From Phaeobacter italicus (GTDB taxonomy: Bacteria > Pseudomonadota > Alphaproteobacteria > Rhodobacterales > Rhodobacteraceae): DNA of 53,030 bases. Every line of letters starts with the position of its first letter. Position 1 is the stretch's first letter. Shown here piece by piece: positions 45,220 through 53,030 of the stretch. The translations under genes were made by a program, and so were the position numbers. The notes below the pieces were generated by a model that saw only the letters and a program-made list of their open reading frames with translations, had not been told where the DNA came from and made no database searches. The stretch spans positions 1-53,030 of the forward strand of contig NZ_CVRM01000006.1 of the NCBI RefSeq assembly GCF_001258055.1, written 5' to 3'.

Positions 45220-45803
45220 TTTCTGATGGAGATTTGATTCAATCTATTGGTGTTTATCTTGTAGTTTTCCACGTGGGATCTGCGCCTCGGCTCCTGTCTT
45301 GAGTTGTCTTTTCGTGATAAATAGCGCGCGAAAATATGCCGTGTTTCAGCAATGACTTGGGTATAGACTTACAAATATCAACAAAACCAGCGTTCTTCGT
45401 CCTGATGCGAAGAATTCTCACTATGATTGAGTGTTCCAGAAAAATACCCAGATTTATCCACAGGGGTGACGGTCCGACATCTTGTCCAGTAACTCTCTGA
45501 TTTTGCAGACGGCACGATGCACTAATCTGGTCTGAATATGCCTCTGCGGGAGAGGTTCTCTACATCAACTCTGCCCGTTAGGGGTTTGTTAACCGGCGTT
45601 AATTTTCCCGCTTCGACCGGCATTCAAACGGTGAGGGGCCTGCGAGAGAGAAACTCCGGCGCAAGGGTTTGGGCAAAACGTGAAGATTTTCTTAAGGCAG
45701 AATCCGGCTTAACGGAAAAGCTTCAAGCATGAAATTTTAAACTTGAAATGTATTGCCAGCCGCATATTCTGACTGCAGCCAAGATTGCAGGAGGGAGTGC
45801 ATC
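45220..45803. other. AT-rich 580-base leader of the aromatic-acid operon
   Basis: This stretch is clearly lower in GC than the rest of the window and has no convincing frame. It holds TTATCCACA at 45454-45462 (the DnaA-box consensus) and a related TTTTCCACG at 45265. There is a perfect hairpin TTCTTCG-N8-CGAAGAA at 45393-45414. The dyad TTAAC-CGGC-GTTAA at 45589-45602 also resembles a CtrA site. The wider dyad TTCAAG-N14-CTTGAA lies at 45722-45747. The last two are plausible operator sites for the MarR protein of the operon. GGAGG lies 9 bases before the first gene. Confidence 0.5.
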
Positions 45804-48098
45804 ATGAAAATCGCCTGTCTGGGAGGCGGCCCCGCCGGTCTGTATTTTGCGATCTCGACCAAGCTGCGTCAGCCGGATGCTGAAATCACGGTATTCGAAC
45901 GAAACAAGCCTGATGACACCTTTGGTTGGGGCGTGGTGCTGTCGGATGATGCGCTCGAAAACTTGACCGCCAACGATCCGGTGAGTGCCGAAAAGATCCG
46001 CGATAAATTCGCCTATTGGGACGATATCGCAGTGGTTCACGGCGGTGTGCGGACGGTTTCCGGGGGGCATGGTTTCGCCGGGATCGGCCGCAAGGCGATG
46101 CTGATCATCCTGCAAGAGCGGGCCCGCGAATTGGGCATTGATCTGCAGTTCGAGACAGAGGTCGGCCCGGCGGCGTCCTATCAGGCGGATTATGATCTGG
46201 TGGTGGCCTGTGACGGTCTGAACTCTCGTGTGCGCAGCGAATTTGCGGAACACTTCAAGCCAAACATCGATGTGCGCCCCTGCAAATTTATCTGGCTGGG
46301 TACGAAACAGAAATTTGACGACGCCTTCACCTTTATCTTTGAGAAGACCAAGCATGGCTGGATGTGGATCCACGCCTATCAATTTGATGCCGACACCGCG
46401 ACGGTGATTGTCGAATGCTCTGCTCAGACCTGGGAAAACTGGGGCTTTGAAGCGATGAGCAAGGACGAGATCCTGCGAACCTGCGAGGCGATTTTTGCCG
46501 ATCATCTGGGTGGCCATGCCCTGATCTCCAATGCGGATCACCTGCGCGGTTCTGCGGTCTGGATCAACTTCCCCCGTGTGTTGTGCGAAACGTGGCATCA
46601 TGAAAACGTTGTTCTGTTGGGCGACGCTTCTGCCACGGCGCATTTCTCCATCGGGTCGGGGACCCGACTGGCCTTTGACAGTGCGATTGCGCTTGCAGAA
46701 TTCATCACCACCGAACCAACGCTGGAGCAGGCCTTTGTGCGCTATCAGGAGGAGCGGCGGCTGGATGTGTTGCGCCTGCAATCAGCTGCGCGCAACTCGT
46801 TGGAATGGTTTGAAGAGGTCGAGCGCTATCTGGATATGGATCCGGTCCAGTTCAACTACTCTTTGCTGACGCGATCACAGCGGATTTCACACGAGAATTT
46901 GCGTCTGCGCGACGCGCAGTGGCTCGCCTCGGCTGAGAAATGGTTTCAGGACGCCGCGAGCGCGCCCAGCGATGCGCCGACCCGCCCGCCGATGTTTGCG
47001 CCGTATCAGTTGCGGGACATGCAGTTGAAGAACCGGATCGTTGTGTCGCCAATGGCCCAATACAAGGCCGTGGATGGTTGCCCGACCGATTGGCACCTTA
47101 TCCACTATGGAGAGCGCGCCAAGGGTGGGGCAGGCCTAGTTTACACCGAAATGACCTGTGTTTCTGCCGAGGGGCGGATTACGCCGGGGTGTCCGGGGTT
47201 GTATGCGCCAGATCACGAGGCCGCCTGGACGCGGCTGGTCGATTTTGTCCATGCTGAAACCGATGCCAAGATCTGCTGCCAGATCGGGCATTCCGGGCGC
47301 AAGGGTTCGACTCAGGTCGGCTGGGAGACGATGGATGCGCCCTTGACCAGCGGGAACTGGGAGACGGTATCTGCCTCGGCCATTGCCTGGTCCGACGCCA
47401 ACCCGTCCCCGCGGGAGATCACGCGCGCTGAAATGGACAGCATCAAGGCTGAATTCGTGGCTGCTGCGGAGATGGCTGCACGTGCGGGATTTGACATGAT
47501 CGAACTTCATGCAGCGCACGGCTATCTGATTTCATCGTTCATCTTGCCAAAATCCAACATTCGCAGCGATGACTATGGTGGATCGCTTCAGAACCGACTG
47601 CGCTATCCGCTAGAGGTTTTTGACGCAATGCGCGCTGTTTGGCCTGCGGAAAAACCGATGTCGGTGCGGATTTCGGCAAACGACTGGGTTGGTGACGAAG
47701 GCGTGACGCCGGAAGACGCGGTGGAGATCGCGCGGGCCTTTACTGCGGCTGGCGCGGACATCATCGATGTTTCGGCGGGGCAGACCACCACAGAGGCACG
47801 CCCGGTCTATGGCCGGATGTTCCAGACGCCGTTTTCGGACCGGATCCGCAATGATGCGGGGATCGCCACAATGGCGGTGGGCAATATCTATGAGGCGGAT
47901 CATGCCAACTCTATCCTGATGGCGGGGCGGGCTGATCTGGTATGTGTGGGCAGGCCGCATCTGGCCGACCCCTACTGGACCCTGCATGAGGCGGCGCGGA
48001 TCGGTGACCGTCATGCGGACTGGCCGCTGCCCTATCTTGCTGGCCGTGATCAGGCCTGGCGTCTGGCGGATCGCGAGGCAGAGGTGATCCGGGCATGA
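45804..48098 (+). CDS. 2-aminobenzoyl-CoA monooxygenase/reductase-type fusion protein
   Basis: The 764-residue protein joins two flavoenzymes. The N-terminal half (about 1-390) is an FAD-dependent aromatic hydroxylase with the dinucleotide fold [12 protein letters not shown] and the second FAD motif [20 protein letters not shown]. The C-terminal half (from about 397) is an Old Yellow Enzyme barrel with [13 protein letters not shown] and [17 protein letters not shown]. This fusion is known for 2-aminobenzoyl-CoA monooxygenase/reductase of Azoarcus evansii, which hydroxylates and then reduces the ring. Databases often label such fusions salicylyl-CoA 5-hydroxylase. ATG 45804 has GGAGG 9 bases upstream. 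It heads the operon; its stop overlaps the SDR start. Confidence 0.88.
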
Positions 48099-48853
48099 GC
48101 AGCATGATGGGCAAGCATGTGGTCATCACCGGCGGGGGATCTGGCGTTGGGGCCGCCCTTGCGCGGAGCTTTGCGGCTGAGGGCGCGCGGCTTACGCTTT
48201 TGGGGCGGCGGATTGAGCCACTGGAGGAAATAGCGGGAGAAACCCAAGGCCTGCCGCTTGCCTGTGATGTCACAGACGCAGGCGCAGTCAGAGCCGCGCT
48301 GGAAACCGCGCGAACGGAACATGGCCCCGTAGCTGTTGCAATTGCCAACGCAGGCGCGGCGCCATCAAAGCCGTTTGCGAAGATGGATGAGAGAGACTTC
48401 TCTGCGGCGCTTGCGGTCAATCTCGGCGGTGTGTTCAATCTTTGGCAGGCGGTCCTGGCGGACATGAAATCCGCAGGTTGGGGCAGAATGATCGCTGTTG
48501 CCTCGACCGCGGGCCTGAAAGGATACCCCTATGTGTCGGGGTATTGCGCTGCGAAACATGGGGTTGTCGGGCTCACGCGCTCGCTTGCGCAGGAATTGGC
48601 GCGCACCGGCATCACCGTCAATGCGATCTGCCCGGGCTTTATCGAAACCCCGCTTCTGGAACGGTCGATCGCAACCATTGTCTCCACCACCGGCATGAGC
48701 GAGGAAGAGGCCTCGAAATCACTGCGCGCAGGCAATCCGCAAGGCCGGTTCATTCAACCCGAAGAGGTGGCTGACACCGCGCTGTTTCTGGCGTCTCCTG
48801 CCGCAGGATCCATCAATGGGGCATGTTTGCCCCTTACCGGAGGGGAGATCTGA
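48095..48853 (+). CDS. SDR family 3-hydroxyacyl-CoA dehydrogenase-like oxidoreductase
   Basis: The 252-residue classical short-chain dehydrogenase has the NAD(P) motif TGGGSGVG (12-19), IANAG, the catalytic YCAAK (Tyr150, Lys154) and the [10 protein letters not shown] segment. In the 2-aminobenzoate pathway of Azoarcus an enzyme of this kind is thought to oxidise a 3-hydroxyacyl-CoA-like intermediate. The start overlaps the previous stop (ATGA) and the end overlaps the MarR start (TGATG), so all three are coupled. Confidence 0.9.
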
Positions 48854-49311
48854 TGCAGTCGGAACGGTCCAAGGACAGGCTGCGCCTGTGGCTCAAGGTG
48901 TTGAAAGCAACCCGCGCGGTGGAGGCGGAGATCCGCGAAAACCTGCGTCAGGATTTTGCAACCACGTTGCCGCGCTTTGACGTGATGGCGGCGCTCAGCC
49001 GTCATCCGGATGGGCTGAAGATGAGCGAGCTGTCAGGTGTGCTGCGCGTGTCCAATGGCAATGTCACGGGCATCGTGGAGCGGTTGGTGGATGACGGCCA
49101 TGTGCGGCGTGAAAAGGTGCCGGGCGACCGGCGCGCGAGCCGGGTTCTCTTGACACCAGAGGGGCTGGCGGAATTTGGCAGGCAAGCGGCTGCCCATGAA
49201 GGCTGGATCGACCAGATGTTCGATGCGGTGCCCGAAGATGCCGTGCACACCCTTTCCGAGGCGCTGGAGCAGGTGGCGCAGCGACTGGACAGCGAAGGAT
49301 CAGACACATGA
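48853..49311 (+). CDS. MarR family transcriptional regulator
   Basis: The 152-residue protein has the MarR winged-helix core, with [30 protein letters not shown] and the wing [15 protein letters not shown], flanked by dimerisation helices. The ATG at 48853 has GGGGAG 5 bases upstream and overlaps the SDR stop. It lies inside the operon, so it probably controls it. CoA thioesters are known ligands of MarR proteins in comparable aromatic pathways, so 2-aminobenzoyl-CoA or a relative is a reasonable inferred ligand. Confidence 0.92.
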
Positions 49312-50111
49312 TTTCAACAGACACCAAACATTTTCTGTGCCGCATCGAGGATGGCATCGCCACCGTTTCGCTGGACCGGCCGGAACGCAAGAACCCGCTG
49401 ACATTTGACAGCTATGCCGAGATGCGCGACTGGTTCCGCGATCTGCACTATGATGACGATGTGAAGGCTGTTGTGTTTGCCCCCAACGGCGGCAACTTCA
49501 GTTCGGGCGGGGATGTGCATGACATTATCGGCCCCCTGACCAAGATGTCGATGAAAGAGCTGTTGGCCTTTACCCGGATGACCGGGGATTTGGTAAAGGC
49601 GATGGTCAACTGCGGAAAGCCGATCATTGCGGCCCTGGACGGGGTCTGTGTCGGGGCAGGTGCCATCATTGCGATGGCATCGGATATCCGTATTGCCACC
49701 CCTGAGACCAAGACCGCGTTCTTGTTCACCCGCGTGGGCCTTGCAGGTTGTGACATGGGCGCCTGTGCAATCTTGCCCCGGATCATCGGGCAGGGGCGCG
49801 CGGCTGAGCTGCTTTATACCGGGCGGTCGATGTCGGCAGAGGAAGGCGCGGCCTGGGGGTTTCACAACAAGGTTGTGGCTGCAGACGAGCTGCTGGCCGA
49901 GGCGCAGTCCTGGGCCACACGCATCGCGGCGGGGCCGAACTTTGGGCATATGATGACCAAGACCATGCTGGCGCAGGAATGGTCGATGTCGATCGAACAG
50001 GCGATCGAGGCCGAAGCGCAGGCCCAGGCAATCTGCATGCAGACGGCTGATTTCGAGCGCGCATATCAGGCCTTTGTCAAAAAGGAAAAACCGCTGTTTC
50101 AGGGTGACTGA
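49308..50111 (+). CDS. Enoyl-CoA hydratase/isomerase family protein
   Basis: The 267-residue crotonase-fold protein has the oxyanion-hole segments NFSSGGDV and [17 protein letters not shown]. The region that carries the catalytic Glu in standard hydratases reads [20 protein letters not shown], with Asp in place of the usual residue pattern, so the chemistry may be ring-opening or hydrolysis rather than simple hydration. Its start overlaps the MarR stop (ATGA). It probably acts on the reduced ring of the CoA-bound intermediate. Confidence 0.9.
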
Positions 50112-50218: not shown

Positions 50219-51379
50219 ATGGCGGACAAGACGTTTCTGAGCTGGCCGTTTTTTGAGGATCGCCATCGCTCTCTTGCGGTTGAGCTGGATGACTGGGCTG
50301 CAGGGGCTCTTGGCGATGTGGATCACAGCGATACCGATGCCGCCTGCCGTAGCCTTGTCACGGCGCTTGGAGAGGCGGGGTGGACGCAGCATTCCGCCGC
50401 CATGACAGGGGAGCGGCTGGATGTGCGCAGCCTGTGTCTGATCCGTGAAACACTTGCACGTCATGATGGGCTGGCGGATTTCGCCTTTGCCATGCAGGGG
50501 CTGGGAACCGGGGCGATATCGTTGTTTGGTACGCAGGCCCAGCAGCAGGAATGGCTGCCGCTGACCCGCGCGGGCAAGGCGATGTCGGCTTTTGCCCTGA
50601 CCGAGCCGCAGTCCGGATCGGATGTGGCGAATTCCACAATGACGGCCACGCTGGATGGCGACAGCTATGTCCTGAACGGTGAAAAGACCTGGATTTCCAA
50701 TGGGGGCATCGCGGATGTCTACACGCTTTTTGCGCGCACCGGAGAGGCACCCGGCGCCAAGGGGCTGAGCGCCTTTATCGTCCCTGCAGGCCTGCCGGGT
50801 TTCGAGGTTGTTGAACGGTTGGACACCATTGCACCACATCCGCTTGCAAGGTTGCGGTTCAGCGATTGTCGTATCCCGAAATCGGCGCTTCTGGGGCAGT
50901 CGGGACAGGGTTTCAAGATTGCGATGTCGGTGCTGGATGTGTTCCGCTCCACCGTGGCGGCTGCGGCCCTTGGGTTTGCGCGGCGGGCCCTGGATGAGGC
51001 ATTGAGCCGGGTCAGCGCACGCCATGTGCAGGGCGCGCCACTGGCCGATCTGCAGATGGTCCAGGGCCATATCGCTGATATGGCGTTGGATGTGGATGCT
51101 GCTGCGTTGCTGGTTTATCGCGCGGCCTGGGCCAAGGACAGTGGCTCGGCGCGGATCACACGCGAGGCGGCGATGGCCAAGCTGTTTTCCACCGATCAGG
51201 CGCAGCTGGTGATCGACAAGGCTGTGCAGCTTCATGGCGGAGACGGTGTGCGGCGCGGTGAGAAAGTCGAAGAACTGTATCGCGATATCAGGGCGTTGCG
51301 GATCTATGAAGGGGCCTCGGACGTGCAGCGCGTGGTGATTGCGCGCCAGACACTTGCAGCCCATCTGGGAGGACAGTGA
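50219..51379 (+). CDS. Acyl-CoA dehydrogenase
   Basis: The 386-residue flavoenzyme has the family signatures [16 protein letters not shown] (FAD/substrate loop), [10 protein letters not shown] and the C-terminal [11 protein letters not shown] and [16 protein letters not shown]. Glu364 of YEGASD is the expected catalytic base. In the aerobic 2-aminobenzoate cluster of Azoarcus an acyl-CoA dehydrogenase gene is also present. It follows the crotonase gene after 107 bases that hold an interspersed repeat, and ends two bases before the ligase start. Confidence 0.92.
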
Positions 51380-51380
51380 C

Positions 51381-53000
51381 ATGTTGGGACCAAGCGCGCA
51401 TATTGACACGTTCACGCGGGACAATCTGCCCCCTGCCGACAGCTGGCCCGAATTCCTGATGGAAGGGTTTGACTATCCCGAACGGCTGAACGCCGCGGTG
51501 GAGCTGACCGATGCGATGGTCGAAAAGGGCTTTGGCGATCATACCGCGCTGATCGGCAACGGGCGACGTCGCACCTATAAGGAACTGAGCGACTGGACCA
51601 ACCGGCTTGCCCATGTGCTGAGTGAGGATCTGGGAGTTAAGCCTGGCAATCGGGTGCTGATCCGTTCAGCCAACAACCCTGCGATGGTTGCCTGCTGGCT
51701 GGCTGCGACCAAGGCGGGGGCGGTTGTGGTCAACACCATGCCGATGTTGCGGGCAGGCGAGCTGGCAAAGGCCATCGACAAGGCCGAGATCAGCCATGCG
51801 CTTTGTGATACGCGGTTGATGGATGAGCTGGTGACTTGTGCAAAGACCTCCGCTTATCTGACCTCGGTTGTGGGCTTTGACGGGACGTCAAATCACGATG
51901 CAGAGCTGGACCGGCTCGCCCTTGAAAAACCGGTCACCTATGAGGCGGTCGAAACCGGGCGCGATGATGTTGCGTTGTTGGGTTTTACGTCGGGCACCAC
52001 GGGCGCGCCAAAGGCGACCATGCATTTTCATCGCGACCTCCTCATGATCGCTGACGGATATGCCGCCGAGGTTCTGGGGGTGACTTCTGAGGATGTTTTC
52101 GTAGGCTCCCCGCCGCTTGCGTTTACTTTCGGCCTTGGTGGATTGGCGATCTTTCCGTTGCGATTTGGCGCCTCTGCCACCTTGCTGGAAAATGCCTCGC
52201 CACCAAATCTCATTGAGATCATCGAGAAATATAAGGCCACGGTTTGTTTTACCGCGCCCACGGCTTATCGCGTGATGTTGCGCGCGATGGAGGAAGGGGC
52301 GGATCTGTCGTCGCTTCGGGCGGCGGTTTCGGCGGGGGAAACCTTGCCAGCGCCGGTCTATCAGGACTGGATCGACAAGACGGGCAAGCCGATGCTGGAT
52401 GGCATTGGTGCAACGGAAATGCTGCACATCTTCATTTCAAACCGTTTCGATGACCATCGCCCGGCCTGTACCGGCAAACCGGTCACGGGATATCAGGTTC
52501 GTGTTCTGGACAGCAACGGGGATGAAGCCCCACGCGGTGAGGTTGGCCGCCTTGCGGTCAAGGGGCCGATGGGGTGCCGCTATCTCGCGGATGAGCGTCA
52601 GGCGGAGTATGTTCAGGACGGCTGGAACGTCACTGGTGACAGCTTTGTCATGGACAGCGACGGATATCTTCATTTTGCGGCGCGCAATGACGATATGATC
52701 GTTTCGGCGGGTTACAATATCGCAGGTCCGGAAGTGGAGGCTGCGTTGTTGGCACATGAAGCGGTTGCCGAATGTGCGGTGATTGGCGCACCGGATGAAG
52801 CGCGCGGCGAAATCGTGCAGGCGCATGTGGTGTTGAGCGAGGGGCACAGCGCATCCGAGGCGTTGGTGAAACTGCTGCAGGATCATGTGAAAGCCACGAT
52901 TGCCCCCTACAAATACCCCCGTCACATGGCTCTGTTGCACAAATCGGGGTTTGAGCAGACTTCCCCTTCCCCAGACGGACTTATCCTACGGGCTCTGTGA
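51381..53000 (+). CDS. 2-aminobenzoate-CoA ligase-type AMP-forming ligase, 3' end interrupted
   Basis: The enzyme would activate an aromatic acid, probably 2-aminobenzoate, to its CoA thioester. ATG 51381 has GGAGG 8 bases upstream. The N-terminal adenylation domain is intact, with the P-loop LLGFTSGTTGAPKATMHFHR, GIGATEMLHIF, and the hinge region DGWNVTGDSFVMDSDGYLHF. Similarity runs to IAPYKYPRH (residue 515). The expected ending with a TGK lysine motif, which is needed for adenylation, is absent. Instead the frame continues 24 residues (MALLHKSGFEQ...) into a sequence that looks like an insertion-sequence end, then stops. The protein is likely inactive or impaired. Confidence 0.85.
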   Translation: MLGPSAHIDTFTRDNLPPADSWPEFLMEGFDYPERLNAAVELTDAMVEKGFGDHTALIGNGRRRTYKELSDWTNRLAHVLSEDLGVKPGNRVLIRSANNPAMVACWLAATKAGAVVVNTMPMLRAGELAKAIDKAEISHALCDTRLMDELVTCAKTSAYLTSVVGFDGTSNHDAELDRLALEKPVTYEAVETGRDDVALLGFTSGTTGAPKATMHFHRDLLMIADGYAAEVLGVTSEDVFVGSPPLAFTFGLGGLAIFPLRFGASATLLENASPPNLIEIIEKYKATVCFTAPTAYRVMLRAMEEGADLSSLRAAVSAGETLPAPVYQDWIDKTGKPMLDGIGATEMLHIFISNRFDDHRPACTGKPVTGYQVRVLDSNGDEAPRGEVGRLAVKGPMGCRYLADERQAEYVQDGWNVTGDSFVMDSDGYLHFAARNDDMIVSAGYNIAGPEVEAALLAHEAVAECAVIGAPDEARGEIVQAHVVLSEGHSASEALVKLLQDHVKATIAPYKYPRHMALLHKSGFEQTSPSPDGLILRAL

Positions 53001-53030
53001 TGGGTATGCCAAGGGCCGTGTAGCGATTGA
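52928..53030. mobile_element. Left end of an IS5-family-like insertion sequence
   Basis: GGCTCTGTTGCACAAATCGG at 52928-52947 has the form of terminal inverted repeats in IS5-family elements (GGCTNTGTTGNANAAATC). It starts exactly where the ligase loses similarity to its family. The element would continue beyond the window, so the transposase and the other end cannot be seen. A short frame beginning ATGGGTATGCCAAGG at 52999 meets a stop after seven codons. The call rests on recalled IS ends, not on a search. Confidence 0.72.

Follow-up and report, generated by a model that had tools for sequence, protein, structure and literature searches.

Very probably, a recent insertion of an IS903-type element of the IS5 family has interrupted the ligase gene that closes an anthranilate-type CoA operon in Phaeobacter italicus, with loss of the A10 lysine and impairment of the entry step of the pathway. 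The window, that is, the whole stretch of DNA that was analysed, is all of contig C6 (NZ_CVRM01000006.1), 53,030 bases long, and the assembly contains nothing past position 53030 (Table 1).

In the course of events that we propose, a member of this insertion sequence (IS) type would have inserted among the final 23 codons of the gene for the ligase, which would stand at the end of a CoA degradation operon of the 2-aminobenzoate (anthranilate) type. The ligase frame runs into the IS and stops on a codon inside it, so that 23 residues, the A10 lysine among them, are lacking. The resulting protein would be unable, or hardly able, to form the acyl-adenylate, and the entry step of the pathway would be missing unless another ligase contributes. 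The strain may therefore fail to use the pathway despite a complete-looking operon, the damage being visible only in the last 24 residues of the ligase. In other respects this would be routine IS inactivation, an event of a common kind and ordinary gene damage.

Table 1. Features of the ligase operon and of the element at the contig end (window coordinates)
Feature	Position	Strand	Basis and remarks
Bifunctional FAD monooxygenase/OYE-type reductase (salicylyl-CoA 5-hydroxylase/oxidoreductase model); resembles 2-aminobenzoyl-CoA monooxygenase/reductase	45804-48098	+	NCBIfam NF006101, 1289.2 bits (cut-off 1078); PF00724, PF01494
SDR-family dehydrogenase	48095-48853	+	PF00106, PF13561; ORF list
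MarR-family regulator	48853-49311	+	PF12802, PF01047; start by likeness to sister genomes, ORF list start 48823
Enoyl-CoA hydratase family protein	49308-50111	+	NCBIfam NF006107, 476.6 bits (cut-off 330)
Acyl-CoA dehydrogenase	50219-51379	+	PF00441, PF02770, PF02771
Remaining ligase-coding part, residues 1-515 plus two bases; putative aryl-CoA (probably 2-aminobenzoate-CoA) ligase	51381-52927	+	89-91% identity to orthologues; PF00501, partial PF13193; best PDB match 4wv3
Tail of 24 residues and stop codon of the ligase frame, encoded by the IS	52928-53000	+	Codon 516: first two bases from ligase
Terminal inverted repeat GGCTCTGTTGCACAAATC	52928-52945	.	18 bp; closely similar repeats at both ends of the L137-L140 elements
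Transposase-3′ end of IS5-family (IS903-type) IS, ended by the contig end	52928-53030	-	103 bp; 3 differences from C35 end; 140 plasmid records
Terminal 55 bases, exact match to the end of contig C35 (assembly overlap)	52976-53030	.	Contig-end comparison
3′ end of the IS transposase gene (15 codons plus stop)	52981-53028	-	tblastn with L139 transposase, 87% over 15 aa, E 0.005; translation

The junction and the element at the contig end

According to the ORF list and its translation, the ligase frame comprises 539 codons (51381-53000) and stops at 52998-53000. Its likeness to the family ends at residue 515, and the terminal inverted repeat begins at base 52928. The junction lies at 52927/52928: ligase sequence extends through codons 514 (R, 52920-52922) and 515 (H, 52923-52925) and two bases of codon 516, the third base of which comes from the element, and the remainder is IS. 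The IS part encodes 24 residues (516-539), which stand in place of residues 516-538 of the sister orthologues; 23 residues of the ligase are lost, the lysine of the A10 motif among them. These coordinates bear out the initial annotation, which had placed a change to 24 foreign residues at 52926-52928. In a profile search the frame retains PF00501 (AMP-binding, P-loop domain; 243.5 bits, ligase residues 50-397). The match to PF13193 (AMP-binding_C) starts at ligase residue 451 and covers profile positions 1-65 of 76 only; in an intact orthologue from Leisingera aquaemixtae (L141) it covers 1-76 of 76.

Several observations identify the inserted sequence. With up to 3 mismatches allowed, GGCTCTGTTGCACAAATCGG has a single match in the window, at 52928-52947 (+), and 0 matches in 100 shuffles. 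The minus strand from 53028 to 52981 reads NRYTALGIPITEPVG followed by a stop, and 13 of these 15 residues agree with the C-terminal end of a transposase annotated as IS5-family (tblastn, E 0.005). A search of 72,556 plasmid records with the final 103 bases of the window gave matches in 140; the best, at 92%, is in Leisingera, and one is contained in a gene annotated as ISPko3. Elsewhere in the assembly, contig C33 encodes 172 N-terminal residues that are 76% identical to an annotated IS5-family transposase. The earlier identification of an IS5-family terminal repeat is thus backed by the transposase C-terminus and the plasmid matches besides the 20-mer, and of the transposase that was expected to accompany the repeat, the last 15 codons are present in the window and the remainder falls past the contig end.

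In annotated relatives of the element (L139, L140) the corresponding end is the one nearest the 3′ end of an IS5-family transposase, and nearly the same repeat is present at both ends. The outer repeat-to-repeat distance is 1,051 bp in L139, 1,089 bp in L140 and 1,331 bp in both L137 and L138. The L138 element is flanked on both sides by the 9-mer AAGTAAAGC; no 9-bp duplication was seen in L137, L139, L140 or the copy in sister genome G004, where the flanking 9-mers differ, so that one of the five complete relatives has a duplication. The IS903-group elements of Paracoccus are given lengths of 1,050-1,054 bp and 9-bp duplications in the relevant portion of a published account (PMC3281130). The window element is like members of this group (ISPam1, ISPpa8 and ISPko1 of Paracoccus) in its type of terminal repeat, GGCTYTGTTGCACAAATC, and in its IS5-family transposase, although the window copy is readable over 103 bases only and the relatives L137 and L138 are longer, at 1,331 bp. 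We take the repeat type as a mark of the IS903 group because of the element length and the L138 duplication, and the sequence accordingly read points to membership of the IS903 group of the IS5 family. In the same-genus genome G004 (L042) a complete 991-bp IS5-family element lies 283 bp after the stop of an intact ligase, in the same orientation as the window element.

The contig appears to end inside the IS as a consequence of the way in which the assembly was made. The assembly has 37 contigs, the smallest of 2,004 bases, and 69 of its 74 contig ends are readable (five read N). Pairing ends that have at least 20 bases of terminal sequence in common gave 55 contig-end pairs, 42 with exactly 55 bases, 9 with 56, 2 with 57, one with 118 and one with 123; all 10 ordered end overlaps are of 55 bases. 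The assembly graph was presumably built with 55-base overlaps, and the assembler would have been unable to cross the repeat. An IS body of about 1 kb would be missing from an assembly that has no contigs under 2 kb. This agrees with a search of the assembly, in which a 331-base query matched C6 and C35 only, and the IS ends of these two contigs differ at 3 bases in 103, all upstream of the last 55 that they have in common.

This setting bears on whether the junction might be an assembly chimera, in which ligase and IS end were wrongly joined and the real gene is intact. The junction does lie within the last 103 contig bases, inside a multi-copy element. Contig-end overlaps are of 55 bases, however, and a wrong join needs such a common stretch, yet the junction is 103 bases from the end and exactly at the inverted repeat; furthermore, the three differences from the C35 end and the failure to find an uninterrupted ligase 3′ end in the assembly both speak against a chimera, which we judge to be very unlikely indeed.

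Two other features of the contig ends were seen. The sequence TGTTGATTGTCACTGAGAA, which we take to be perhaps an IS21-like end, occurs in the last 120 bases of 18 of the 69 readable contig ends, and many contig breaks in the assembly are therefore probably IS-caused. Contigs C18 (17,765 bp) and C24 (5,441 bp) each have ends that overlap one another by 55 bases, as in complete small circular plasmids.

The A10 motif in homologous ligases

At least 593 of 596 pattern stretches were confirmed as ligase relatives, and the best 80 of these at least 593 were taken for comparison. With 19 loci from other relatives, the total is 99 homologous loci, of which 98 are distinct, a single identical protein end being common to both sets (L012 = L191). 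At the A10 position after KYPR, all 80 best-ranked loci have GK, in 79 as [TS]GK and in one (L207) as AGK. The motif is present in all 19 further loci as well, in 17 by pattern and in L022 and L024 by eye. The A10 motif with the catalytic lysine is therefore absent from the window ligase and present in 99 of 99 homologous loci (98 distinct), and the 24-residue IS tail was not seen among these loci. Homologues with the same C-terminus, which would have spoken against an interruption, were looked for in the same 99 loci and none was found. The claim of the initial annotation that an IS5-family end interrupts the ligase and removes the A10 lysine agrees both with the retention of the A10 GK in every homologous locus and with contig C35, which ends in the same IS end.

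The best solved relative of the window ligase is the anthranilate-CoA ligase 4wv3 (residues 52-517, 273.7 bits), and the benzoate-CoA ligase 2v7b scores 221.8 bits. The intact orthologue L141 aligns through LPKTETGKIQRF with 4wv3 and with benzoate-CoA ligases such as 2v7b; the window protein, unlike these families, is without this A10 stretch.

The tail could instead be tolerated, the ligase still working. The fusion has an uninterrupted frame of ordinary length (539 aa, against 535-549 aa in the best 80 of at least 593 homologues), and dN/dS is not raised (see below). Against these points, the tail comes from the IS, read in a chance frame; it contains no A10 motif and occurs in none of the 99 homologous loci, making a working fusion very unlikely.

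Ligase orthologues at 89-91% identity are found in five of the six same-genus genomes, the sixth (G001) having no close ligase (best E 1.3e-49). An in-frame TAG interrupts the N-terminal domain of an orthologous ligase from another genus (L021, G029:C12:528230-529780), the C-terminus of which is intact; this is possibly an independent loss or else a sequencing error.

The operon, its pathway and the age of the break

As the initial annotation had held, everything upstream of the ligase appears intact: all five upstream genes have open frames. The start of the monooxygenase/reductase gene is an ATG chosen by likeness to the sister genomes (the ORF list alternative is TTG 45753; profile searches used 45801-48095). 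In 74 of 80 loci (the best 80 of at least 593), the 3 kb upstream of the ligase contain a match to an acyl-CoA dehydrogenase.

Since 4wv3 is the best solved relative, anthranilate appears to be the likeliest substrate of the ligase. The window ligase scores 323.9 bits against the benzoate-CoA ligase family TIGR02262, below the cut-off of 375.25; this is not due to the truncation, because two intact orthologues also score below it (352.8 and 360.3 bits). To judge by gene content, the upstream genes resemble a 2-aminobenzoyl-CoA route. The 2-aminobenzoyl-CoA pathway of Azoarcus evansii, as far as the cited portion of its description goes (PMC4539516), likewise brings together a ligase, a flavin monooxygenase/reductase and beta-oxidation-type genes; it differs from the window in that the entry ligase here is truncated.

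The A10 lysine is described as a key catalytic residue of aryl-CoA ligases in the pertinent part of one report (PMC8388817), and its acetylation prevents adenylylation according to the corresponding part of another (PMC4053389). Because the window protein is without this lysine, loss of most ligase activity is likely, in line with the proposal of the initial annotation that the pathway has lost or weakened its entry enzyme. A search of the genome with the ligase gave 19 matches, of which the second best is 36% identical over residues 21-519 and has its own TGK. Similar second-ligase matches (35-36%) occur in five sister genomes, and for these reasons the second-best ligase has the appearance of a general ligase and not of a copy.

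The dN/dS of the remaining ligase is 0.040-0.048 against five sisters, with 0.064 for one sister pair, and that of the other five operon genes against the sisters is 0.024-0.111 (the G003 monooxygenase over 598 codons only); these values are weak evidence because dS is near saturation (0.9-1.8 against the sisters). As dN/dS is not raised, either little time has passed since the break or the gene product still serves a purpose. We infer that the ligase break is recent, with which dN/dS is compatible, though it is a weak test. We also considered that the fusion was kept as beneficial, the A10-less ligase stalling anthranilate breakdown (or retaining a residual half-reaction) and so sparing anthranilate for other use, a reading that we hold to be exceedingly improbable.

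The far side of the element and other IS copies

The inverted repeat, with up to 2 mismatches, occurs at five sites in the genome, comprising 3′ ends on C6 and C35 and 5′ ends on C2, C33 and C35. With three 5′ ends against two 3′ ends, an attempt to pair the IS ends gave no unique solution. No ligase sequence was found beside any of the three 5′ ends, and the expected 9-mer CCGTCACAT (52919-52927, beside the window IS end) is absent next to all three in the assembly, which may not include the partner flank. A degenerate A10-motif pattern, which recognises all 5 sister ligases and 70 of the 80 best-ranked homologues, has no match anywhere in the genome assembly. A 32-residue C-terminal query gave 10 genome matches (E up to 10), the best of which (52%) is another ligase, and the displaced end was not found. 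The second repeat at the locus, the target duplication and the displaced ligase 3′ end that had been hoped for at the outset were thus not recovered from the assembly, in which contigs under 2 kb are absent.

These results could indicate that the insertion was followed by an IS-mediated adjacent deletion or by recombination between IS copies, in which case the ligase 3′ end would have been lost from the genome or joined to another site, and the IS flanks would not be two halves of one ligase. The missing 3′ end and the three 5′ ends with neither ligase sequence nor the 9-mer beside them would fit such a sequel, which is a finer version of the insertion reading and not exclusive of it; however, the smallest contig has 2,004 bases, and the 3′ end may have been on a shorter one that was left out of the assembly. 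The missing ligase 3′ end is equally compatible with a dropped short contig, deletion or recombination. Because the far flank of the IS was not recovered, simple insertion is indistinguishable from insertion with deletion or recombination, and we regard the latter as a tentative possibility.

Gene content after the ligase was also considered in this regard. In four sisters (G002, G003, G005 and G006; loci L039, L040, L041 and L043) the ligase is followed by a three-gene module; to judge by eye, two of its proteins are glycosyltransferase-like, of about 373 and 1,105 aa, and the third is sulfotransferase-like. In the P. italicus assembly the large glycosyltransferase has only partial matches of about 44%, on C11, and the sulfotransferase has no match, so that the lack of close module orthologues could be counted in favour of a deletion. 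The absence need not be loss, however: close orthologues were found in none of seven of the 11 genomes searched (P. italicus, G001, G004 and four of other genera), the more distant matches being partial for the glycosyltransferases (up to 55%, in G030) and 30% for the sulfotransferase (in G004), and in the best 80 of at least 593 loci tblastn found no member of the module in the sequence that follows the ligase, which was covered for up to 3 kb and amounts to at least 1.5 kb in 78 of them. Since the other genomes and the 80 loci are also without the module, its absence is no evidence of deletion, and with close orthologues in only four sisters of 11 genomes deletion is not supported as the cause of its lack. 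A polar effect of the insertion on downstream genes was rejected, the next gene being convergent in four of five sisters.

The remaining IS copies have features of their own. At G000:C35:149977-150659 (L004) there is a nested insertion, in which the 3′ end of a second copy interrupts 580 bp of an IS903-type element at 150557. The 5′ half of the transposase in this L004 element has an in-frame stop, which the C33 copy is without, and contig C33 breaks off where the element on C35 is interrupted by the nested insertion. A fragment on C2 that looks like a dGTPase C-terminus was rejected as a synteny anchor, having matched one of seven genomes, P. italicus itself only. Beside the 5′ end on C33 (L092, G000:C33:1-1500) lies a tyrosine integrase-like C-terminus with tRNA-Cys-like sequence near it (by eye), and this region is perhaps the boundary of an integrative element.
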